From contig CAISDJ010000060.1 of NCBI GenBank assembly GCA_903884105.1, positions 1 to 64,000 on the forward strand: 64,000 nt of DNA, in the 5' to 3' direction. Source of the DNA: an uncultured Pseudomonadota bacterium. GTDB lineage: Bacteria > Pseudomonadota > Gammaproteobacteria > Steroidobacterales > Steroidobacteraceae. Position numbers and translations under genes: made by a program. The notes beneath the pieces are model-generated. The model ran no database searches. It saw only the letters and a program-made list of their open reading frames with translations, and was not told the DNA's origin. Position 1 is the first letter of the stretch. Each line of letters opens with the position of its first letter. Shown here one piece after another: positions 7,781-49,296 of the stretch.

Positions 7781-8590
7781 ATGGACATGACAAACGCCGC
7801 AAGCCGGCATCGGTATCTGCCGCTCTTTCTGGTGTTCGCCATCGCGTGTTTTTGCGTGGGTCAGTCGACAGCTGCGGTACCCGCCCCGCAGGCCAAGGGG
7901 GGCAATCCTTCGGATCTGCTGGGCGTCTGGATCGGAGCAGGCTTCGGGAGCACCGCCTGGCGCAATACCAGCTGGACTTTAACTCCAGAGTTCACGGCCT
8001 GGGGTGCTGCTGAATCCAAACGGATGGGTGACCCGCAGGTCTCCGTCGAGAGCTACTGCGAGCCGCCTGGGCCGACCGTGCTGATGGGTGCCAATCCGCT
8101 GTTTCCCATGCAGATCGCAATGTCGCCCGGCGAATTGGTCATCATGATGGAGGGCGCTCCGATTCCGCGCCATATCTACATTGACGGGCGCACTCACCCT
8201 GATTTTCTGGAGCTGGGCTGGACGGGGCATTCAGTCGGCCACTGGGAAGGCGACGTGCTGGTCGTCGACACGATCGGCCTCAAGGCGCCCAAGCGGCCGC
8301 TGAACGGGTTTGCTTCAAACGCGGTCATTCCCTTGCCTACGGACAAAGGGCCTCGACTGCCGATCTCCGAACAGCTCCACATGATCGAGCGCATCCGTCT
8401 GGTGGGGGCGGGACAATTCCTCGAAAACGAGATCACGCTGATCGATCCGAAGGCGTATGCGAAGCCGCTGACCGCAAAGTTCTATTCGCAGAGGCGTCCG
8501 GATCTCACTCTGCTCGACCTCTTCTGTAACGAGGACACGCGGCCGCAGGATGAGGGCTACGTTCCAGGCAAGGCAGCCGAGAAGCATTGA
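7781..8590 (+). CDS. Exported WEGD-family protein of unknown function
   Basis: 269 residues with an N-terminal hydrophobic export signal (YLPLFLVFAIACFCVG, cleavage probably after STAA). No known catalytic domain is recognisable. The core motif is DGRTHPD followed by GHSVGHWEGDVLVVDTIG; the same arrangement recurs at 10736-11620 and 22707-23588 and more weakly at 20810-21598. The second half is predicted beta-rich (MIERIRLVGAGQFLENEITL). Periplasmic or outer-surface location is inferred. It directly precedes a DUF6152 gene. Confidence 0.75.
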   Translation: MDMTNAASRHRYLPLFLVFAIACFCVGQSTAAVPAPQAKGGNPSDLLGVWIGAGFGSTAWRNTSWTLTPEFTAWGAAESKRMGDPQVSVESYCEPPGPTVLMGANPLFPMQIAMSPGELVIMMEGAPIPRHIYIDGRTHPDFLELGWTGHSVGHWEGDVLVVDTIGLKAPKRPLNGFASNAVIPLPTDKGPRLPISEQLHMIERIRLVGAGQFLENEITLIDPKAYAKPLTAKFYSQRRPDLTLLDLFCNEDTRPQDEGYVPGKAAEKH

Positions 8591-8640
8591 GTAGCCGATC
8601 CCGTTACAGTCGATGGCTGCTTTTCAATGAGGAGTTCATG

Positions 8641-9048
8641 ATGAGAATGCCAACAGGCGTCGTTGCGGCAGCGGCCTTCCTGCTGACTGCACAACTGGCT
8701 GATGCCCATCACTCATTCGCGATGTTTGACCTCGCGAAGGAAGTGACGATCGAGGCGACGGTGAAGGAACTCCGTTGGACCAACCCCCATGTCTGGATTC
8801 AGGTGCTGGTCCCCGGCAGCGCGGGTGGGGAACAGGAATGGGGTATTGAGGCGGGTGCGCCGGGCATGCTCACGCGCACCGGCTGGCGCAGCAACATGCT
8901 GGCTCCCGGCGACAAGGTGACATTGATCGTGCATCCGGCCCTCAGTGGAGCTCCGACGGCGAGCCTGGTCAAAGTCACGCTCGCAGATGGCCGCGTGATG
9001 GGCCCAGGCGGTCCACCGCCACCGCCACCCGCGAGTGCCGGGCAATAG
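8641..9048 (+). CDS. DUF6152 family exported protein
   Basis: 135 residues: signal peptide ending LADA, then HHSFAMFDLAKEVTIEATVK and WTNPHVWIQV, the hallmarks of DUF6152, a small exported beta-sandwich-like family with an N-terminal double histidine that may bind metal. The proline-rich end (GGPPPPPPAS) looks like a flexible tail. A gaggag site at 8629-8634 favours the second of two adjacent ATGs (8641) over 8638. Probably co-transcribed with the preceding exported protein, 50 bases upstream. Confidence 0.75.
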   Translation: MRMPTGVVAAAAFLLTAQLADAHHSFAMFDLAKEVTIEATVKELRWTNPHVWIQVLVPGSAGGEQEWGIEAGAPGMLTRTGWRSNMLAPGDKVTLIVHPALSGAPTASLVKVTLADGRVMGPGGPPPPPPASAGQ

Positions 9049-9086
9049 GGCTTTTTGCTGTTGAACTGGACGAGAGCAGCACGGCT

Positions 9087-9509
9087 TTGCAGCGTGTGCT
9101 GCGGGCAGTGCTGGACGTCGAGCGGCGTACGCAGGGCATGCTGTCGCCGCTTGAGCTCGTGAACGCGATCACGAACAGTGAAGAGTGGGCCTGGCTCAGG
9201 CCGCTATACAGCCTGATAGCCGACATCGATCATGCGCTCGCGGGCGAGGAAGCACTGCCGGCCAGCGAGATCGCCGCGATCGGTGCACATGCCCGCGCGA
9301 TGCTGTCGGGCGTTGGCGCGCCGGTCGAACAGGCGTTTCTGGATCGCTATCGAGTGCTGCTGCAGACGCATACCGAAGTGGCGATGGCCCACGGAGGCGC
9401 CATCCAGGCGTTGAAGAAGCTGCCGCCTGAGCCAGAGACGGAATCAGAGCGACTTCGCGCTCATCACCAATGGAACGAGCGGCGCCTGCATCAACGTCGC
9501 CATCGATAG
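9087..9509 (+). CDS. Conserved hypothetical helical protein
   Basis: About 140 residues, predicted all-helical and charged; contains SPLELVNAITNSEEWAWLRP and LYSLIADIDHAL, a pattern I associate with an unnamed proteobacterial family. No signal, membrane segment or catalytic motif. The start is uncertain: TTG at 9087 is used here, but the frame is open further upstream and the true start may lie near 9060. The last ~20 residues are rich in arginine and histidine. Confidence 0.5.
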   Translation: MQRVLRAVLDVERRTQGMLSPLELVNAITNSEEWAWLRPLYSLIADIDHALAGEEALPASEIAAIGAHARAMLSGVGAPVEQAFLDRYRVLLQTHTEVAMAHGGAIQALKKLPPEPETESERLRAHHQWNERRLHQRRHR

Positions 9510-10735: not shown

Positions 10736-11620
10736 TCAGTCGCGAGTTGCCGTCGTGCGCCGGCCAGAGCGGAGCTCGCGAACCTTCTGCATGTACTCGG
10801 GGTACATCGTCTGCGCGCCACCGAGGACTGCCTCGAGCGGCAGCTTGTTCTTGTCTGCGTACTCGGTCAGGAACGGATGCTTGCCTGGCAGGTAGTGCGG
10901 CACATACCCCTTCGGTTGGCCGACAATCTCGACCACCGGATCGCACGGATACGGGGCGATGTTGGCCTGGTTGTTGAGTTCGTAGTCGGAGCTGCGGATC
11001 ATCGACTCTGTCAGGTTCGCGGGGTCCTGGATCACCACGATGACAGTCACGTAGTTCCCATGGCGCGCATAGTGCTCACGAGTCACTGCGCGATCGCTGC
11101 GCGACACGCCGTTGCGACGGATATAGGACTGCTTGAGGTGGGTGGTCTCGACCGACAGCACGTCGCCTTCCCACTTGCCGAGGGAGAAACCCTGGAAGGT
11201 GTGCGCGGCATAGTCCGCCGGGCGCTCACGTCCGTCCATCCAGATCGTCCGCTCCGCCGCCTGCCAGACCTTGCGCATGTGCCAGCCGATCGTGTCCTGG
11301 GTTTCGGAGTTCACGAGCTTGGTGAAACGGAAGTTCGCAAAACGGGTGTAGTAATCCGAGGGATGCGGACGGCACTGGTATTCCTCGAGCGTCACCAGAG
11401 AAGGCTCCCAGGAAAGGGCGCGCGCCCGGCCAGACTCGTTGATGGGCAGCCCTTCATACTCCACCATGTCGGGACCCGTGCCTCTTTCGAGGAAGTCCTC
11501 ATGGACCCGGCCCACCCAGACGCCAGACAGGTCGATTTCGGCAAGGGCGGTTCCGGTCAGGAACAGCATGCCGAGACTGGATGCCAGGACAGCCCGGCGC
11601 AGCGAAGGTAGTAAAGCCAT
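10736..11620 (-). CDS. Exported WEGD-family protein
   Basis: 294 residues. Signal peptide MALLPSLRRAVLASSLGMLF with cleavage after GTALA. Motifs: WMDGRERPADYAAHTFQGFS, GKWEGDVLSVETTHLK and SYIRRNG, closely matching the protein at 22707-23588. An N-terminal segment (HEDFLERGTGPDM, followed by ESGRARALSWEPSLVTLEEYQC) is also shared between the two. Function unknown; no catalytic residues recognised. The start at 11620 follows a strong aggggga site. The gene has its own terminator and stands alone. Confidence 0.8.
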   Translation of the reverse strand: MALLPSLRRAVLASSLGMLFLTGTALAEIDLSGVWVGRVHEDFLERGTGPDMVEYEGLPINESGRARALSWEPSLVTLEEYQCRPHPSDYYTRFANFRFTKLVNSETQDTIGWHMRKVWQAAERTIWMDGRERPADYAAHTFQGFSLGKWEGDVLSVETTHLKQSYIRRNGVSRSDRAVTREHYARHGNYVTVIVVIQDPANLTESMIRSSDYELNNQANIAPYPCDPVVEIVGQPKGYVPHYLPGKHPFLTEYADKNKLPLEAVLGGAQTMYPEYMQKVRELRSGRRTTATRD

Positions 11621-11878
11621 GAAATCCCCCTGAACGGATGTCTTAAGGCAAAGACCGAGTTGTATCCAGCCAGATGGCAATCGCCTCCCAGCCGGTCTTG
11701 CTTCCTGAATGGTAAACCGCGGCTTCCCCGACGGACAGCCCGTCTTGACAAATCTCCTCAGAATGTCCGCTTTAGGGGGGCGCTTGTCATTGGTCCGGCG
11801 CCACAACGGTCGGCAATTGCGCCCGATGGCCGGGACCCTCCGGCGAAGGTCCGGCCATCCGCAGGCAAATCCGGGGGC

Positions 11879-13822
11879 TCAGTGCGGCACCGGGTCACCG
11901 AGCGCCCGCGCGGTGAACCGATAGCGCGTCTTGCCGATCGTCAGGACGTCCTCGTTCTGCAGGACCTGCTTCCGGACTCGTCGCCCGTTCACATAACACC
12001 CGTTGGTGCTGCCCAGGTCCTCGATGATGACGGCGCTCCCACCGATCAGCAGGCGGGCATGATGCCGGCTGATGTGACTGGAGCGAATCTGCAGGTCGTT
12101 CTCGTGCGTCCGGCCGATCGTCATGACCTTGCGATTGAGCACATGCACGACATCGGCATTGTCGACACCGATGAGGTGGCGGAGCGGAACGTGGGCCGTA
12201 TCGGTCCCCTGGCCGTTCTCGATGCTGTTGATGTCGCGGCGAATCGAGGCGAGCGCGTCGACATGGGTGGCGAGCTCTGCTCGCAGGGCAATGACAGCCG
12301 CTTCCCGGGCATGCAGTTCGGTCGAAAGGGATTGCGATTGCGCTTGAGCCCCTTCGAGCTCTCGAGCAAGGGTCGCGGATCGAGTCCGCAGGTCCTCGGC
12401 TTCCGTTTCCAGCGCTTGCATTCGCTCGTTCCGCGCCTGCAGCTCATTTCCCTGTAATGCCAGGTGCGACTCGAAATCGGCCAGTCGATGCTCGAGCGTC
12501 TCAATCTTCTCAGACTGGCGTGTCCCCGCTTTCGCGGCGTCGGAGTGCTCGCTCTGCAGTTCGTCGAGTTTCGTCTGCAACGCGGTTGCCTGCTGCAGAG
12601 TGGCATCACGCTCGCTGGCAGCAACAGCTAGCGAGGTCGTGCTCTCAACAAGCTCTGCCCGGGTCTCCTCGTGGGCCGTCGTTTTCAGATTGAGGTCGTC
12701 GCGAAGCTGCTCGAGCTGCTGCGCCAGTGCAGATGCAACCGCGACCGACTGTTCGTACAGCCGCGACGATTCCAGCAGCGACTGTTCGCGCAATCCGAGC
12801 GACTGTTGCAGGATCTGCTTTTCCGTATTGAGTACGGCAATGGTCGCTTGCTGGCTTCCGATCTGGTCGTGTAGTTCGACGATGCGGCTATCGCCCGCCT
12901 GCAGCGAATTCTTGAGTGCGGCCAGCGACTCATCACGGCCCGCGACATCCTTGCCAAGACGGGTGATATTCGCGGCGGCTTCTTCGGCGACGGCCTCAAG
13001 CGCCGCGACGGAGCGTTCGCGAAGGGCCAGTGCCTGCTCGAGGCGTGCCATCGCAGCGCGGCTGGTATCGAGGGCAGCCTGCAACTGGTTGCTGAGGGAA
13101 TACTGTTCCGCAAATCGCTGTGCAATGGCGGCAGCGGCCCCTGTTTGTTCCGCGACCAGCGATTCGAGTGCAGTAGTGCTGGCTCGTTTCGCAGCCAGTT
13201 CGATGAGCGTTTGCTCGAGTTGCAGCCGCAGGGTGTCTGCATCGGACAGCGCCAAGACTGCCGTTGTCGAGTGCTCCGTCGCCCGCAACTCGATCTCGGC
13301 AAGCCGGGATTCGGTGATCCGCCGCTCCGCTGCGAGCAATTGTTCGAGTTCGGCGATGCGGGAACGCTGTGTCTGATGCTCGTCTGACAATCCGGTCAGG
13401 TCGGCGTCCGCTTTCAGGCAGCGAGCCTTGAGCGAGTCCCTTTCCTCAGTCAGTGCCTGGCTGAGTGTTGCCAGTGAGCCGTTGGCAATATTCGCATCGT
13501 CGAGGCGCGATTCAAGCTGCGCGATGCGGTCCAGAACGCCGTTCAGTTCGCCGTCCAGTCGTGATTTGCTGGACGCGGTGACCTCGAGGGTGCCCTGCAA
13601 TGCATGCAGTTCGGCTTCGCGGTCCTTTAGTTCGTCCTCAAGCTGGTCAATCCTGGCAGCGTGCAGATCATGGGGTTGCGGTGCGAGCCAGGTATCGGTG
13701 TTGTCCACGGCGCCCGCATCCATTGCCTTGAGATGGGCCTCATAGGCAGCCGGGTCGAATTGCGGCAACGCGTCGGTACGATCGGGGTCGTCTTGCGGAG
13801 GATGGATGTCGCGCTTGCGCAT
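11879..13822 (-). CDS. Long coiled-coil protein with C-terminal FHA domain
   Basis: 647 residues. Residues ~55-530 are almost unbroken coiled coil (repeated heptads of L/A with E/Q/R), and the last ~85 are a forkhead-associated phosphopeptide-binding domain: TIGRTHENDLQI, SSHISRHHARL, DLGSTNGCYVNGRRV. All key FHA residues (G-R, S-x2-H, N-G) are present, so phosphothreonine binding is expected. No transmembrane helix. No kinase or phosphatase partner is adjacent. It stands alone, about 260 bases after the previous gene. Function could be scaffolding or cytoskeletal; this is inference. Confidence 0.85.
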   Translation of the reverse strand: MRKRDIHPPQDDPDRTDALPQFDPAAYEAHLKAMDAGAVDNTDTWLAPQPHDLHAARIDQLEDELKDREAELHALQGTLEVTASSKSRLDGELNGVLDRIAQLESRLDDANIANGSLATLSQALTEERDSLKARCLKADADLTGLSDEHQTQRSRIAELEQLLAAERRITESRLAEIELRATEHSTTAVLALSDADTLRLQLEQTLIELAAKRASTTALESLVAEQTGAAAAIAQRFAEQYSLSNQLQAALDTSRAAMARLEQALALRERSVAALEAVAEEAAANITRLGKDVAGRDESLAALKNSLQAGDSRIVELHDQIGSQQATIAVLNTEKQILQQSLGLREQSLLESSRLYEQSVAVASALAQQLEQLRDDLNLKTTAHEETRAELVESTTSLAVAASERDATLQQATALQTKLDELQSEHSDAAKAGTRQSEKIETLEHRLADFESHLALQGNELQARNERMQALETEAEDLRTRSATLARELEGAQAQSQSLSTELHAREAAVIALRAELATHVDALASIRRDINSIENGQGTDTAHVPLRHLIGVDNADVVHVLNRKVMTIGRTHENDLQIRSSHISRHHARLLIGGSAVIIEDLGSTNGCYVNGRRVRKQVLQNEDVLTIGKTRYRFTARALGDPVPH

Positions 13823-14039
13823 GGCTCGTCAGGTTCTCGCAGGAGGCGGTGCCCGCAGAATGTCATGCCGCGGGACCCTATCTTAGGCGACGGGCCTGAC
13901 CTCGCCTCAGGCAGTCGTCGGAACTGTGCCCGGCCGCACAGGAATGCAGACCGCATCAAGCGGCGGGGCGCTGCGCAACCCTGTCCAGCAGGACGCTTAC
14001 CGGAAGCCAAATCAATCCCTTAGACTGTTCAGGCCCAGA

Positions 14040-37840: not shown

Positions 37841-39970
37841 TCACTCGACCACCGGCCCGTCAGACTCCATGATCGCCCGGATCTGCGCCACGAGGCGCGG
37901 CCAGTCGACCTGAGGGGCGTTGCCAATGACGTTGATCCGTGGCAGGCCGCGGCCCTTCACCAGATAGTAGCCCCCCTTGGGCGCGGGATCGATCCCGTCC
38001 ATGAGGCAGATTTCCTTGTCGAGCCGGCATGAGATGCCGAGCTTGGCGTAGTTGAACTCCTCGAAGAACTTCATGAACCCGCCCGACAGTGCGGCACCGA
38101 CTCCTGCGCCGCCGCCACCCAGGTTGCCGATGTTCTGCACCGCGCGCTGGCTGATCCTGTGGCGGGAGCGGTCCTCAGGCGGCGTGTACAACCGTGCATC
38201 GAACTCGACCGGCATCCAGTCGAACAGCACGAGTTCGTTGACGTAGCCCGACAGCCGCCCGGTGATGCGGCCGAAGGAGAAGGCCGACGTCACCTGCTCG
38301 AGGTCGAGGTTGAAGATGTCGATGCTTGAGTACAGTCGCGGCCAGTCGCCGAACGGATCCTCGAGCCGCAAGTCGCTCACTTCGAGCCGGCCGTCGAAGA
38401 CCCGTGCCTGCAGCGTCGTGGAAAGCGTGAGCACGCCGCCTTGCAGCTGCAGGTCGGAAATGCGCCCGCCAAGTTGTCCGCCGAACTCAGGCCAGCCGAA
38501 GGCCCGGGACAGGCGCTGCAGGCTCAAGGGCACCAGATTCGCGTCGAGCGCAAACGCCATCTCGGGCAGCCCTGCGTTGCGGACGGCGAAGCGGTCAAGT
38601 TCAAGCGCCCCATCAAGCAGCGGAATGCGTGCCGGCTGCAGCAGTTCGATATCCCGGTTCGCCGTGCGGAATGCGAGCGTCGTCGCGCCGACATCAAGTC
38701 CGAACAGCAGGCCACCCTCCAGCGTCAGTCGTGATTCCGGTGCAACCGGGTTGGTCGCGCCGCCCTGCCAGTGCACCTCCCCGTTCATTCCGTAGAGCGC
38801 GAGTTTTCCGGTGCGGTTATCCGCCGAGACAGAGGCGAAGACGAGGTCTGCCTGCCGAGGCTCGCTCTCGCTGATGACGATGTGTCCTGCCACAGTGCCA
38901 GCGGTTTCAAGGGCCTTGAAGGCCGTGGCGAGCAGGAAAGGTTGCAGATAACTCGCATAGGCGCCGGGGAGCGTCAGGCGGTCGATGACGACATCCAGCT
39001 GCTTGACCAGCGTTTCGCCGCTGCGTGCGAGGTTGGCCGAGCCGTGTGCGATGACCGTATCGCGATGATTGACCGTGAAGGAGGTCAGGTCGATGCCCCC
39101 GTCGGCAAGCCAGGCGCCCTCGGTGCTCGCATCGATGGCATGAATCCCGAAATCAAGGAATACGGGCTCGGCATACGCCTGGCCGTGGCTGCTGTGCGCG
39201 TCGATGGAAAACTCCCAGCGGTCGCTGCGACGGTCGAGCCGGCCGCCCACCGTCAGCGCCAGCTTGTCACTCGCCAGCGTGCCGCCCTCGTTCCCGATCG
39301 TCAGATCGGCGAGCTCCGCGTCGAACTCGACTGACTGAGGAACCTTGCCTCGCCCTTCCGCCTGCAGATTGACCGTCACGACACCCGTACCCGTGATTCC
39401 AGGCAGCGGCACGGACCATTGCTTCGCCAGTGACTGCAGCTTGTCGACCGTGACGCCCTTGAGGTGTGCTCCAGCCGACCAGGCCTGGCCGCGCAACGAA
39501 CCCTGGACCTGAGCGACACCGTCGCCGATCCGCAGGCCCTCGATTTGCACATCAAGCGCGCCGCTCGCAGGTTCGTAGGTCACTGCGGCGTGGAACTGCT
39601 GTCGGCCCAACGTCGGGACGACTGCGTCGATGCTGGCTCGTGCGCAGCGGATACGACGGGCCTCCAACGTGAACCCGGGGCAGTCGACTCGGACGTTGCG
39701 CAGCGGTTCGGCGATGCCGGCCAGCGTCATCGATGCGGCGGTGAGGTGAGCGGTACGTGCCTTGTCCCGCGCGGAGGCCAGGGGCACTTCCATGCGCAGA
39801 TCCCGCAGCACCCACCCGTCGCCGGCAATGCGTGCGGCGGCGAACGTCGTCGACTCGATGGCCGCGACGACAGGAGGCAACAGCACCAGCCAGAGAAGAA
39901 GGCCAAGCCCTCTGCAGCAGGTCACGCGAGCGCTGCGGTCATTGTCAATTTTACAGTTGCCCTTTGTCAT
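37841..39970 (-). CDS. ydbH: YdbH-like AsmA-family lipid-transport protein
   Basis: 709 residues. A membrane anchor near the N-terminus (LGLLLWLVLLPPVVAAIE) is followed by long AsmA-like beta-rich repeats. The C-terminal domain has the YdbH signature: RISQRAVQNIGNLGGGGAGV, FFEEFNYAKLGISCRL, GYYLVKGRGLPRINVIGNA and VDWPRLVAQIRAIMES. In E. coli YdbH, TamB and YhdP share the job of moving phospholipid to the outer membrane. Start ATG 39970 chosen; a GTG a few codons later is possible. Confidence 0.85.
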   Translation of the reverse strand: MTKGNCKIDNDRSARVTCCRGLGLLLWLVLLPPVVAAIESTTFAAARIAGDGWVLRDLRMEVPLASARDKARTAHLTAASMTLAGIAEPLRNVRVDCPGFTLEARRIRCARASIDAVVPTLGRQQFHAAVTYEPASGALDVQIEGLRIGDGVAQVQGSLRGQAWSAGAHLKGVTVDKLQSLAKQWSVPLPGITGTGVVTVNLQAEGRGKVPQSVEFDAELADLTIGNEGGTLASDKLALTVGGRLDRRSDRWEFSIDAHSSHGQAYAEPVFLDFGIHAIDASTEGAWLADGGIDLTSFTVNHRDTVIAHGSANLARSGETLVKQLDVVIDRLTLPGAYASYLQPFLLATAFKALETAGTVAGHIVISESEPRQADLVFASVSADNRTGKLALYGMNGEVHWQGGATNPVAPESRLTLEGGLLFGLDVGATTLAFRTANRDIELLQPARIPLLDGALELDRFAVRNAGLPEMAFALDANLVPLSLQRLSRAFGWPEFGGQLGGRISDLQLQGGVLTLSTTLQARVFDGRLEVSDLRLEDPFGDWPRLYSSIDIFNLDLEQVTSAFSFGRITGRLSGYVNELVLFDWMPVEFDARLYTPPEDRSRHRISQRAVQNIGNLGGGGAGVGAALSGGFMKFFEEFNYAKLGISCRLDKEICLMDGIDPAPKGGYYLVKGRGLPRINVIGNAPQVDWPRLVAQIRAIMESDGPVVE

Positions 39971-40163
39971 GAACCTGGCGCAGTTCGGCGGCATACCGGG
40001 GGGTGCAAAGTTCCGCACCGCACCTAGCTTGTTGCCACGGCCGCGAACGCGAATTCCACCGCTGCGGGCTGGCGCAACTGTTGTACTCTAGCGGACCTGA
40101 GGCTGCCCCGGCGACGATGCGACAGGGGGCGTCCGCACTCCGTTGGCAATTAGGATCTTCATC

Positions 40164-41006
40164 ATGCGCTACGTAAGAACTGTCGGACTCGCGGCTGTGC
40201 TGGCACTGGCTGCGGGATGTGGCCAGAAGTCTGCCGAGCAGGCCGAGGCGACCGCACCCGCTGCTACTCCCGTTGCTCCCCAAACCGACGCACCGGCCGC
40301 GATCGCCGCAGCGATCGCGAGCACCGGTCGTCTGATGGGCGACACAGACGAGGATGCTCGCCGCCATCCGCAGGAAGTGCTTGAGTTTCTCGGCGTGGAA
40401 CCCGGCATGCGCGTGCTCGACTTCGGTGCCGGCGGTGGGTATTACACCGAACTGCTGTCCCGCGTCGTGGGTGCGGACGGCACCGTCGTTGCCTATAACG
40501 ATGGCCTGTATACGAAGCTCTTCGGCCCGCGACTCAACGAGCGCCTGAACGGCGGCCGCCTGGCGAATGTGAAGCCTCTCGTGGCGGAAGCCAACGACAT
40601 CACCCTTGAGCCCGGTGAGCTGGATGCGGCGCTCTTCGTGATGTCCTATCACGACCTGTTCCACCGCCCGGAGGGCGCCGCCGCCGCAGTCGATGTCCCG
40701 AAGGTTGTTGCCAAGGTGTTCGGTGCGCTGAAGGCGGGGGGCATCGTGCTCGTTCAGGACCATGCAGCCAACGCGGGTTCGGAAGTCGTCGAGGCGGCCA
40801 ACAGCCTGCATCGCATCGATCCCGAAGCGGTAAAGAGCGGTTTCACGGCTGCAGGCTTTACATTCGATGGCGCAAGCGCGGTGTTTGCGAATCCTGCGGA
40901 CGATCACTCGAAGATGGTGTTCGATCCGGCAATTCGCGGCAGCACGGACCGCCTGATGTTCCGTTTCCGCAAGCCGCTGCCGGTCGATGCGCCGCGCGCG
41001 GAATGA
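40164..41006 (+). CDS. Lipoprotein with SAM-methyltransferase fold
   Basis: 280 residues. The N-terminus is a lipoprotein signal (AAVLALAAGC) and an Ala/Pro/Thr-rich linker. The rest is a class I methyltransferase fold: motif I VLDFGAGGGYYTELLSRVVG, acidic end of strand 2 in AYNDG, GIVLVQDHAANAG near strand 5. Export is odd, because SAM is a cytosolic cofactor; either SAM is not the ligand or the protein is no longer a methyltransferase. The next gene is a paralogue, 35 bases downstream. Confidence 0.75.
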   Translation: MRYVRTVGLAAVLALAAGCGQKSAEQAEATAPAATPVAPQTDAPAAIAAAIASTGRLMGDTDEDARRHPQEVLEFLGVEPGMRVLDFGAGGGYYTELLSRVVGADGTVVAYNDGLYTKLFGPRLNERLNGGRLANVKPLVAEANDITLEPGELDAALFVMSYHDLFHRPEGAAAAVDVPKVVAKVFGALKAGGIVLVQDHAANAGSEVVEAANSLHRIDPEAVKSGFTAAGFTFDGASAVFANPADDHSKMVFDPAIRGSTDRLMFRFRKPLPVDAPRAE

Positions 41007-41041
41007 TCCACACAGCAACGCAAGTTACAGGGGATTTCACG

Positions 41042-41824
41042 ATGACGATTCAGAAACGCTTACTCGCGCTGGCGGGCATTTGCATGCTGGCAGCTCTGCC
41101 TGCCGTTGAGGCCGCCGGTCCCGCGAACTCTGCCGCCATCAAGGCGGCGCTCGCCAGCACCGAGCGCCTGCCTTCCGACAGCGCGGAGGATGCCTGGCGC
41201 CAGTCTGCCGCGGTGCTTGAGGTGCTGGGCGCACGCCCGGGCATGAAGGTGGTCGACGTGGGCGCGGGCGGCGGGTATTTCACCGAGCTGCTGTCTCGCG
41301 TGGCCGGTCCGCAGGGTTCGGTCACCACGCAGAATCCCACCGGCTTCGTGACCCGCCTGACTGCGCGGCTCGAGGAGCGCTACGGCAAGAATCGGTTGCC
41401 GAACGTGGTGCGTCTTGAGGGCGACCCGATGGTGCTCCCCGCAAATGCCTACGATGCGGCTCTGATCGTCAACTGGTACCACGACCAGTACAGCCCCCGC
41501 GCGCAGACGATCGGCGGCGGTCCGGCCACGCCGGCCGGTCCCGGGCCCTTCGTTGCTGAAGTGTTCAAGTCCCTGAAGAGCGGCGGTGTCGTCGTCGTTC
41601 AGGATCACACGGCCAATGCCGGTGGCGATCCGATGGATGTCGGGACTACCATCCACCGCGTGGATCCGGAGCAGGTGAAGAAGGACTTCGCCGCAGCGGG
41701 CTTCAAGTTCGATGGCGAGAGCAACGCGCTGCGCAATTCAGAGGACGATCACAAGGTACGCGTGCACGAGCAGGGCATGCTGCACAAGACGGATCGTTTC
41801 ATCCTGCGCTTCCGCAAGCCCTGA
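41042..41824 (+). CDS. Exported SAM-methyltransferase-fold paralogue
   Basis: 260 residues; signal peptide MTIQKRLLALAGICMLAALP cleaved after VEA. It aligns along its length with the preceding lipoprotein: ASTERLPSD, VVDVGAGGGYFTELLSRVAG, VVVVQDHTANAGGDP, IHRVDPEQVKKDFAAAGFKF, DRFILRFRKP. The pair is a tandem duplication in which one copy became a lipoprotein and the other soluble. aggggat precedes the start. A unit-repeat hairpin follows. Confidence 0.78.
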   Translation: MTIQKRLLALAGICMLAALPAVEAAGPANSAAIKAALASTERLPSDSAEDAWRQSAAVLEVLGARPGMKVVDVGAGGGYFTELLSRVAGPQGSVTTQNPTGFVTRLTARLEERYGKNRLPNVVRLEGDPMVLPANAYDAALIVNWYHDQYSPRAQTIGGGPATPAGPGPFVAEVFKSLKSGGVVVVQDHTANAGGDPMDVGTTIHRVDPEQVKKDFAAAGFKFDGESNALRNSEDDHKVRVHEQGMLHKTDRFILRFRKP

Positions 41825-41975: not shown

Positions 41976-43340
41976 ATGGCTGCAAGACGCGCACTGATCG
42001 TCGACGACTCGCGGTCCGCCCGCGTGATTCTGAGCCGCATGCTGGAAAGCTACGGCTTGCAGGTCGACGCGGCGGAAACTGCGGAGCAGGCGTTCGAGTT
42101 CCTGGAGCATCAGCGCCCCGATGTGATCTTCATGGATCACCTGATGCCCGGCATGGACGGCTTCCAGGCCGTCCAGGTGCTGAAGTCCAATCCGTCCACC
42201 GCGTTGATCCCAGTGATGATGTACACATCGCAGGAAGGCGAGCTGTATGTCGGCCAGGCGCGCGCTCTGGGTGCTGTCGGCGTGCTGCCAAAGACCGTCA
42301 AGCATGCCGATGTGTCGCGCGTGCTGTACCAGCTCAACCTGCTGGAAGAGCGGCGCGAGAATCGCCCGGGGCTCGTCGTGCCACCGGAAGCGGAAGAGCT
42401 GGATACCCAGCAGGTCGAAGTGTCCTCCGCGCGGGCCGAGCAGATCGACCAGCCGCCCGAAAGCCATTCAGGTGATCCGTCGCTGCGCGCTCTGCTCGAC
42501 AGCGCGTTCAAGGAGCAGCAGATCGAGCTGCGCCGCTTCATGCTCGCCAGTTTCGAGGCCTTTATCCGGCGCGTCAGTGCGGACATCAAGACAGTGGTAC
42601 CTCAGCCGGAATCGATCGATCCGGCCGCCTCCCTTGCGCAGAGCTACCAGAAGGCCGGCGACTCGCGCTGGCCCTGGCTCATCGCAGGGGTTGCCGTGCT
42701 CGCGCTGCTGCCGACTGCCATCCTCGGTGCGTTCTACTTGAGGATCATGGACACGACGCGCAGCCTGACTGACACCAATGGAAGGCTGGCCGAGTTGGTG
42801 GCGGGGCAGCAGGCACAGATCAATGCGCTCCGTGACGCGCCACCTGATGCAGACACGACAGCCCAACCGGCCATTCCGGCAACTCCGCCAGTGGCAGTCG
42901 AGGCTGTAGGGTATGGCGAGACTCCGCTGTCCGGAGTGCGGGTTGAGAAACTGCGCGCGCTGCTTGCCCGACTCAAGGCCGACGGCTTCAAGGGGACCGT
43001 GCGCATCGAGTCCTTCGTGGGCGACTTCTGTCTTGCCGGGAACGCGGTCGAAGGCTATTCGCTCGCGGCCGACGAACTGCCTGCCCGCCGCTGCGATGTC
43101 ACCGGCAATCCGTTCGAAGACGGACTCTCCGGTGCGCAGCGGCAATCGCTGTCCTTTGCCAATCTGGCTGCATCGATCGCCCAGGAGACCGGTGGCGATC
43201 TTCGTGTCGAAGTGATCGCGGCCGGCCGTCGCCCGATGGCGCCGTATCCCGCGGCCGCTGACACCCTGACGGCAGGCGAATGGAATAGGGTCGCCACGCG
43301 CAACAACCGCGTGGAATTCACGATCGAGCCGGTGGGATGA
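41976..43340 (+). CDS. Response-regulator receiver fused to a membrane-anchored domain
   Basis: 454 residues. Residues 1-120 are a complete receiver: acidic pair D10/D11, phosphoacceptor D54 (IFMDHLMPGMDG), T84, K106. A helical linker leads to one transmembrane helix (~233-256, WPWLIAGVAVLALLPTAILG). The C-terminal ~200 residues should be periplasmic: a short coiled coil and proline/alanine linker, then a domain ending GEWNRVATRNNRVEFTIEP, reminiscent of the end of OmpA-type peptidoglycan-binding domains but too divergent to assign. No DNA-binding or enzymatic output domain. Overlaps the next gene by four bases. Confidence 0.8.
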   Translation: MAARRALIVDDSRSARVILSRMLESYGLQVDAAETAEQAFEFLEHQRPDVIFMDHLMPGMDGFQAVQVLKSNPSTALIPVMMYTSQEGELYVGQARALGAVGVLPKTVKHADVSRVLYQLNLLEERRENRPGLVVPPEAEELDTQQVEVSSARAEQIDQPPESHSGDPSLRALLDSAFKEQQIELRRFMLASFEAFIRRVSADIKTVVPQPESIDPAASLAQSYQKAGDSRWPWLIAGVAVLALLPTAILGAFYLRIMDTTRSLTDTNGRLAELVAGQQAQINALRDAPPDADTTAQPAIPATPPVAVEAVGYGETPLSGVRVEKLRALLARLKADGFKGTVRIESFVGDFCLAGNAVEGYSLAADELPARRCDVTGNPFEDGLSGAQRQSLSFANLAASIAQETGGDLRVEVIAAGRRPMAPYPAAADTLTAGEWNRVATRNNRVEFTIEPVG

Positions 43341-44362
43341 ACTCGGCAGGCTTCCTCCCGCCCCGCTGGCTGCGTAACCACCACCTGCAATCCATCCTGC
43401 CGACCAGCCGGTTCCGCAGGCCGTGGGTCATGCCCCGGGCGCGTCAGTTGCTGACGGCATCGCGCCCTGCCATTCTCGATTGCGGTGCCGGCGTGCGTCT
43501 GTCGGGTGATCACTCGCGGCAGGAAGATGCCGGCAGGGTGGCAGCCACAACGCTGGTCGTGCTGCTGCATGGCTGGGAAGGGAGCGCCCAGTCGCTCTAT
43601 GTGCTCGGGCTTGGCAGCCACTTGTTCGGACTGGGCTACGATGTTTTCCGGTTGAACTTCCGCGATCACGGCGGCAGCCACGGCCTCAATCCAGGGCTGT
43701 TTCATTCCTGCCGTCTGGATGAAGTCGTGGGCGCAGTGTCGCGCTTGCACGGCTTGTTTCCCGACAAGAAGCTGTGCATTGGCGGATTCTCGCTCGGAGG
43801 AAATTTCGCGCTTCGCGTCGCCGCCCGCGCGCCTGCCAGCGGGATTCCCGTCGAGCGCGCTTTCGCGGTGTGCCCGGTGTTGAGTCCGCACAGTACGCTC
43901 GAAGTTCTCGAGCGCGGCTCGTTCGTGTACCGGCAGTACTTCATCCAGAAGTGGAAGCGCTCGCTGGTCGAGAAGCAGCGCTGCTTCCCCGGGATCTACG
44001 ACCTCAAGGACATCCTGGCGATGAACACGATGACGGCGATGACGGACGCGATGGTTCGCCGCTACAGCGAGTTTGCCGACCTCGATTCCTACCTGACCGG
44101 GTATGCCATCGTCGATGGCGCGCTTGCCGGACTCGCGGTGCCGAGTCATGCCCTGCTGGCTGCGGACGATCCGATCATTCCGGTCAGGGACGCAGACCGC
44201 CTCGCGAAGACGCCGTTCCTGTCCGTCACGCATTCGCGCTACGGAGGGCACTGCGGTTTCCTCGACAGCTTCGGTCGCGAGAGCTGGGTCAATCAATGGG
44301 TCATGCGCGCAATGGGAGCAGCCCCACAGCCCATGATGAGCGGGGGAAGCGACGAGCGATGA
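43337..44362 (+). CDS. yheT: YheT-like alpha/beta hydrolase
   Basis: 341 residues, the UPF0017/YheT group. WLRNHHLQSILPTS at the start is the family signature; VLLHGWEGSAQSLYVL forms the oxyanion region, GGFSLGGNFALRVA holds the nucleophile serine, followed by the late Asp (LAADDPIIP) and His (YGGHCGF). Probably an esterase or lipase. The last residues (GGSDER) run into the left arm of the 44346-44448 repeat. Co-transcribed with the receiver fusion gene. Confidence 0.88.
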   Translation: MNSAGFLPPRWLRNHHLQSILPTSRFRRPWVMPRARQLLTASRPAILDCGAGVRLSGDHSRQEDAGRVAATTLVVLLHGWEGSAQSLYVLGLGSHLFGLGYDVFRLNFRDHGGSHGLNPGLFHSCRLDEVVGAVSRLHGLFPDKKLCIGGFSLGGNFALRVAARAPASGIPVERAFAVCPVLSPHSTLEVLERGSFVYRQYFIQKWKRSLVEKQRCFPGIYDLKDILAMNTMTAMTDAMVRRYSEFADLDSYLTGYAIVDGALAGLAVPSHALLAADDPIIPVRDADRLAKTPFLSVTHSRYGGHCGFLDSFGRESWVNQWVMRAMGAAPQPMMSGGSDER

Positions 44363-48903: not shown

Positions 48904-49296
48904 CTACTTGCGCTTTTCCTCGAACGTAGTGACAGCTTCGCCGCTCGTGATCGTCATTTCGCCGACCACGACCGCGCCGCGTGCGATCGCGATGGTCTGC
49001 GCGCGGATGTTGCCGTCGATCCTGGCTGCCTTGTGGATTTCGAGTTTCCCCTCGAGCGTCAGGTTGCCCTGCAGTTCCCCTGCTATCACTGCGCTGCCGG
49101 CCGTGACTGGCCCGGTCCAGCGGGCCTTCTCGGCCAGCAGGAAGGCGCCCTTGATGCGGCACTCCCCCGTTGCCACGCCGGCCACGGACAGGTCCGAGTC
49201 GCAGGCTATGTCGCCTATGAACTCGGTCCCGGCGCCGATGAAGGTCGGGCTGCCGGTGATCCGGTCGAGCAATCTGCGCTTCGGGATGTCGATCAT
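48904..49296 (-). CDS. Bactofilin
   Basis: 130 residues. The central DUF583 beta-helix is seen as short hydrophobic repeats (SPTFIGAGTEFIGDI, GNLTLEGKLEIHKAARIDGN, GAVVVGEMTI) flanked by charged ends. Bactofilins polymerise without nucleotide and organise cell-wall or polar structures. It begins an operon with GDPD, GlpD and a kinase, which is not a usual partner set. Confidence 0.85.
   Translation of the reverse strand: MIDIPKRRLLDRITGSPTFIGAGTEFIGDIACDSDLSVAGVATGECRIKGAFLLAEKARWTGPVTAGSAVIAGELQGNLTLEGKLEIHKAARIDGNIRAQTIAIARGAVVVGEMTITSGEAVTTFEEKRK

Follow-up and report, generated by a model that had tools for sequence, protein, structure and literature searches.

A single gene of an uncultured Steroidobacteraceae bacterium joins an intact response-regulator receiver, through one predicted transmembrane helix, to a divergent OmpA-like domain that should lie in the periplasm. 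The window, i.e., the whole stretch of DNA analysed, covers 64,000 nucleotides, and the protein has 454 residues. Our preferred reading, held at somewhat less than even confidence, is an inner-membrane response regulator that is held from outside by its OmpA-like domain and in which phosphorylation gates docking in the cytosol. The features discussed below are as follows.

41976..43340, + strand: whole receiver-transmembrane-OmpA-like gene, 454 amino acids (single open frame, relatives, full-length AF2 model)
41988..42335, + strand: receiver domain, residues 5-120 (PF00072, E 4.4e-23; five residues in 74/74)
42336..42476, + strand: disordered linker, residues 121-167 (pLDDT <50 at 128-165)
42477..42596, + strand: cytosolic helix, residues 168-207, a candidate coiled coil (AF2 helix)
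42669..42746, + strand: transmembrane helix, about residues 232-257 (hydropathy; start of AF2 helix 232-286)
42747..42833, + strand: transmembrane helix continued beyond the membrane, residues 258-286, a candidate coiled coil (AF2 helix 232-286)
42888..43337, + strand: OmpA-like domain, residues 305-454 (AF2 pLDDT 95.2, pTM 0.86; Foldseek and VIA-align; cysteines in 74/74)
43337..44362, + strand: downstream alpha/beta hydrolase gene (PF00561, E 4.2e-14)
48904..49296, - strand: bactofilin gene (PF04519, E 1.7e-21)

The open reading frame runs from an ATG at 41976 to a stop codon at 43338-43340 and contains no internal stops. From the N to the C terminus, it encodes a receiver, a disordered linker, a helix, the transmembrane segment, a further helix, a linker, and the OmpA-like domain. 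The full-length AF2 model (mean pLDDT 82.8) resolved the receiver, a disordered stretch, helix 168-207, more disorder, helix 232-286, a linker, and the OmpA-like domain, while its pTM of 0.43 means that the mutual placement of the domains is not predicted. Among the best 80 of 530 encoding stretches in named genomes, the match spans from query residue 15 or before to residue 411 or beyond, covering both the receiver and the C-terminal domain. These 80 include Steroidobacter, Peristeroidobacter, Povalibacter, Woeseia, and many uncultured gammaproteobacteria; the closest is MAG L041 (83% identity), and one 'Acidobacteriota' MAG (L104) may be misbinned. For 40 related genomes, a relative extending past the receiver was present in 26 among the matches listed, and the other 14 gave receiver-only or weak matches. 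In the class sample, the C-terminal domain was detected in 19 of 274 genomes (own genome included; 20 matches), and in the phylum sample in 2 of 398. Both phylum carriers belong to the same class, so we claim no wider spread.

Conservation was assessed in an alignment of 74 relatives (A3), from which the near-duplicates L032, L034, L045, and L055, the 5'-cut L054 and L107, and L110 were left out. L110 was considered as a naturally occurring fusion to the hydrolase downstream and dropped, as its record has unreadable letters at the junction. A second alignment (A2) left out L032, L034, L054, L107, and L110, plus L037, L047, L091, and L109, in which Tyr replaces Phe before the first Cys and which its pattern missed; these four are present in A3. 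The first-pass annotation had taken the gene for one unit and proposed to look for its architecture in other genomes; the gene is indeed one unit, and the architecture recurs there. That two genes were joined by frameshift or by chance has a vanishingly small probability and is already refuted by the relatives: all 74 rows of A3 hold both ends in one frame, and every class match not cut by a contig end (L115, L116, and L130 are cut) encodes receiver and OmpA-like domain within a single frame, the transmembrane segment being left out of this count. The relative L021, one of the 26 counted above and split over two overlapping frames, would speak for such a joining, for which the window itself gives nothing. 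A different exception among the 26 is L024 (G011, a single-contig genome), which keeps the receiver, transmembrane segment, and linker and ends before the OmpA-like domain.

The receiver was recognized by PF00072 over residues 7-113 (E 4.4e-23; 82 bits against a gathering score of 30.2). At E up to 1, Pfam returned only receiver-type families for the 454-residue protein, the second of them below its cut-off, and neither an enzymatic nor a DNA-binding output domain was recognized. As stated in the first-pass annotation, all residues for phosphorylation are present: the acid pair D10 and D11, the phospho-acceptor D54 (codon 42135-42137), T84, and K106 are each found in 74/74 rows. D54 should accordingly be able to accept a phosphoryl group, judging from these residues. 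Two features common in response regulators, though not strictly defining, are missing. The aromatic switch residue is absent, with V103 in 73/74 rows at what we take to be the position of CheY Y106, and residue 107, following the active-site Lys, is Q or T in 66/74, with Pro not among the listed counts. The receiver has a mean pairwise identity of 0.75 (74 rows), and within it conservation reaches 0.92 in the alpha4 stretch and 0.99 in beta5.

Sequence searches with the C-terminal domain were empty. Pfam OmpA (PF00691) matched none of 72 family members at E up to 10, and neither NCBIfam nor the PDB sequences gave a match to the domain of the window, so that structure was needed to place it. 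The isolated domain (residues 302-454) was modelled by AF2 with a pLDDT of 95.2 as strand, helix, strand, insertion, helix, strand, helix, and strand, i.e., an OmpA/Pal/MotB fold interrupted by a cysteine-bearing insertion. The best Foldseek match was the wall-binding domain of TagL (E 1.3e-3, prob 0.99; none <1e-3), followed by Pal, OmpA, T6SS anchors, MotB, and YfiB. Judged by title, the best 50 of 448 Foldseek rows (E <= 10) are all OmpA/Pal/MotB-type domains or assemblies with such domains, with TM-scores by query length of 0.33-0.47. VIA-align gave Pal as the best match (Z 6.8, rmsd 3.1 over 96 residues; the tool itself rates a Z below 8 as middling), and 49 of the 50 rows in its uniform listing are of the OmpA/Pal/MotB kind, one being unrelated. 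Compared as a profile with the profile of 29 OmpA domains taken from relatives, the domain reached a probability of 8.8% (E 0.0038), and the alignment was in register at the end, where NNRVE (443-447) aligned with the NRRVE end of OmpA. In this weak alignment, D374 (D/E in 71/74) pairs with the Asp of the OmpA TD motif, and R389 (71/74) lies one position off the OmpA Arg; we take the peptidoglycan-ligand Asp and Arg to be those of A. baumannii OmpA, D271 and R286. The C-terminal domain is a divergent OmpA-like family missed by the Pfam OmpA model. Of the proposal that the protein ends in an OmpA-type wall-binding domain, the fold stands by structure prediction and both structure searches; wall binding does not yet follow, the ligand residues being partly recognizable in an alignment of 8.8% probability.

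The domain carries two invariant cysteines, C352 (43029-43031) and C373 (43092-43094), each in 74/74 rows of A3 and 21 residues apart, a spacing kept in 20/20 class matches. R322, Y424, A433, W436, and N437 are likewise found in 74/74, while the mean pairwise identity of the domain is 0.43. Over the 74 rows, cysteines number 148 in the C-terminal domain, 24 in the transmembrane region, 2 in the receivers, and 1 in the cytosolic linkers. This pattern and the fixed spacing are what a periplasmic disulfide would leave, and C352 and C373 are likely to form one.

Between the two domains, sequence is poorly conserved. Region 123-167 varies from 23 to 83 residues in length (mean pairwise identity 0.22, 74 rows), and identity is 0.32 in helix 168-207, 0.27 in the transmembrane segment, and 0.19 in the second helix. 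The strongest hydrophobic stretch lies at 235-253 (19-residue Kyte-Doolittle mean 2.37); one stretch above 1.6 occurs in 74/74 rows of A3 and a second in 0/74, in agreement with the single transmembrane helix proposed in the first-pass annotation. With the N-terminal receiver in the cytosol and one membrane crossing, the C-terminal part is therefore expected in the periplasm, where it had been placed before. This orientation follows from the cytosolic location of a receiver with intact chemistry, from the OmpA-like fold, and from the cysteine pattern, and we consider it well supported, although the flanking charges are no help: Lys and Arg per 15 residues average 1.45 before the transmembrane helix and 2.03 after it (A3), which lends an N-in orientation no support.

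The start of the alpha/beta hydrolase gene overlaps the stop codon of the receiver gene, and the two are likely to share a transcript. Gene neighbourhoods were compared at 79 of 81 loci (for L050 and L097, no gene model of the protein was obtained), and contig-end cuts make all of the counts lower bounds: a hydrolase relative lay near the gene on the same strand in at least 48/79, a bactofilin relative in at least 43/79, an ABC transporter ATPase relative in at least 41/79, and a SPOR-type lipoprotein relative in at least 30/79. None of these four was found near nine more distant loci. A weak glycosyltransferase match lay near 2 of the 9, and no neighbour shared by all nine was seen; 18 of their neighbours were scanned. 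In L088, a SPOR-domain protein (12853-13647; Pfam, this locus only) adjoins the bactofilin, and none was seen beside the bactofilin of the window. Just upstream of the receiver gene, 40143-41824 (+) encodes two tandem methyltransferase-like proteins with PCMT-type Pfam matches and signal-peptide-like starts, whose relatives lie upstream in at least 9/79 loci. Beyond them, 37841-40018 (-) encodes a 725-residue protein with relatives near in at least 21/79 loci and no Pfam match at E 1; it adjoins a DUF1318 protein and, by resemblance, is perhaps an AsmA/YdbH-type envelope protein, as we presume.

The bactofilin was considered as a functional partner and is rated as inherited neighbourhood instead. 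In 43/43 loci its strand is opposite to that of the receiver gene, so the two do not share a transcript; it was within 12 kb of the gene in 15 of 26 relatives, absent from 3 of the 26 (G014, G017, and G021), and nearby in 0 of the 9 distant loci. In the class sample, bactofilin is present in 19/19 carriers and 158/255 non-carriers (Fisher P 2.5e-4, a comparison that ignores ancestry and genome size). The linkage is kept within part of the order and is context only.

The window neighbours scanned include no kinase, and the leads to a phospho-donor come from other loci and from elsewhere in the genome. Of 88 loci, four (L065, L090, L096, and L172) have a kinase-like gene no more than three genes away, and in L096 and L172 it is directly adjacent. 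The L172 gene, directly downstream of a distant relative on the same strand (7781-9325), encodes a hybrid histidine kinase (HisKA, HATPase, and receiver by Pfam) and is a candidate partner. A GGDEF/EAL gene lies within three genes in 9/88 loci and directly upstream in 8, seven of which are divergent: L095 (7229-9676; called by Pfam), and L100, L101, L102, L106, L108, and L109 (called by phmmer), several of them titled Woeseia or Woeseiaceae. In L168, a PAS-GGDEF-EAL gene (10996-13947) lies directly upstream of another distant relative on the same strand. Since these signalling neighbours differ between lineages, no partner follows from them; since they adjoin the gene in a few relatives, the donor may be a kinase other than ChpA.

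In the own genome, the best receiver match is the terminal receiver of a 1939-residue CheA-like kinase (35% identity). The second and fourth (39% and 30%) are small receivers of the same cluster, and the third lies elsewhere. The cluster, on contig 117, consists of the two small receivers, a 685-residue chemoreceptor-like protein, and the kinase with its terminal receiver, and by this layout we take it to be Pil-Chp-like. The naming also draws on the available part of PMC12632253. A hit to this kinase at E <= 1e-100 was counted by eye in 138 of the 274 class genomes, with 18/19 carriers against 120/255 non-carriers (Fisher P 4.5e-5, again ignoring ancestry and genome size). The one carrier missed is G230 (best E 4.1e-71), whose genus mate G094 has the kinase, and many Chp-type genomes are without the receiver-transmembrane-OmpA-like protein. 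The Pil-Chp kinase is the best of several weak leads.

In the reading that we prefer, the cytosolic receiver would take a phosphoryl group at D54, perhaps from the ChpA-type kinase of the Pil-Chp-like system. The single transmembrane helix, flanked by helices, would carry the OmpA-like domain into the periplasm, where its grip on the wall or on a periplasmic partner would keep the receiver on display at one membrane site. Docking of a cytosolic partner on the highly conserved alpha4-beta5 face would be gated by phosphorylation, and the protein might work like the polar hubs HubP and FimV, its cytosolic module being a phospho-switch. Counting for this reading is the contrast between an identity of 0.75 in the receiver, 0.43 in the OmpA-like domain, and 0.16-0.32 in the segments between. 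A linker this loose and variable speaks less for a mechanical push into the periplasm than for a tether displaying a conserved docking face. L024, with its receiver and membrane segment kept, counts in the same direction, although one exception is thin evidence. A related proposal, possible yet on the doubtful side, is that the protein represents a separate class of response regulators with physical placement or remodelling at the wall as their output: phosphorylation would change the grip of the OmpA-like domain or which proteins gather there, and the surface-sensing Pil-Chp kinase might in this way be connected to the envelope.

Signalling from inside to outside, as proposed in the first-pass annotation, is possible and not favoured; we rate it as unlikely. 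Here, phosphorylation would make receivers dimerize, the helices on each side of the membrane would pair, and the OmpA-like domains would change their partner or wall contact, much as in LapD. Helices on both sides of one transmembrane segment in the AF2 model would suit this, as would the conserved alpha4-beta5 face, which forms part of the dimer face in OmpR-type regulators. There is also a precedent: in the available text of PMC5231407, LapD signals inside-out as a transmembrane protein, cytosolic c-di-GMP acting across the membrane and activation involving a dimer-of-dimers. Against it, the disordered, length-variable linker between receiver and helix makes a rigid push through the membrane unlikely, although a signal in the form of altered oligomerization could still pass. 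The outer domain is also far less conserved than the receiver, no common gene was seen around the nine distant loci, and L024 does without the OmpA-like domain altogether. The GGDEF/EAL neighbours of some lineages would fit a wall-anchored receiver and inside-out signalling alike.

Signalling from outside to inside appears improbable. The periplasmic domain, through its disulfide or its wall contact, would report the state of the envelope and thereby cluster the receiver or release it into competition for a kinase or partner. The invariance of C352 and C373 speaks for it, as do the OmpA-like YfiB structures among the Foldseek and VIA-align matches, YfiB being the OmpA-like member of the YfiBNR system, in which it signals from the envelope. 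The same loose linker stands in its way, however, and Pfam recognized no enzymatic or DNA-binding output. The absence of a recognized output domain would suit a phosphate sink, a membrane receiver draining a kinase such as ChpA, and the nearest receivers of the own genome do belong to the Chp-like cluster. Yet a sink would not need a conserved outer domain of 150 residues with invariant residues, and we regard it as very improbable.

The targets of most response regulators are DNA, enzymes, or further proteins of the cytosol. A conserved family in which a membrane helix links the receiver to a wall-type anchor would extend the outputs of two-component signalling across the membrane, and it would provide a simple and testable protein for studying how signalling kinases label sites of the envelope. 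Its parts are already known; for the combination and for the OmpA-like subfamily, we found no description in the open-access literature searched.

Several known systems share parts of this design. The wall anchors MotB, PomB, ZorB, TssL, and TagL, all among the structure matches, carry the OmpA-like domain on the C-terminal side of a transmembrane anchor, as here. They differ in that the cytosolic part here is a receiver and the OmpA-like domain is missed by Pfam. MotB-type stators have a transmembrane aspartate; the segment at 235-253 contains no Asp, and neither a MotA-like gene nor any other stator or secretion gene was found among the window neighbours scanned. The ChpA receiver together with PilG and PilH, whose likely counterparts are the first (35%) and the second and fourth (39% and 30%) receiver matches of the own genome, share the receiver and are soluble or kinase-fused, unlike the membrane-spanning protein here. 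YfiB has the OmpA-like fold in a signalling role and is an outer-membrane lipoprotein without a receiver. LapD, according to the available text of PMC5231407, also turns a cytosolic signal into a periplasmic consequence across the inner membrane, but it uses c-di-GMP instead of phosphorylation and consists of unrelated domains. HubP and FimV differ in having LysM instead of an OmpA-like domain, an acidic or TPR cytosolic part, no receiver, and a reversed domain order; Pfam at E up to 1 found neither LysM nor TPR in the 454-residue protein. Nevertheless, HubP, as described in the available part of PMC8789113, combines a periplasmic domain that binds the wall, one transmembrane helix with coiled coils to either side, and a cytosolic part to which partners bind, its periplasmic LysM being necessary and sufficient for polar targeting. 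HubP is the best working model for the protein described here.
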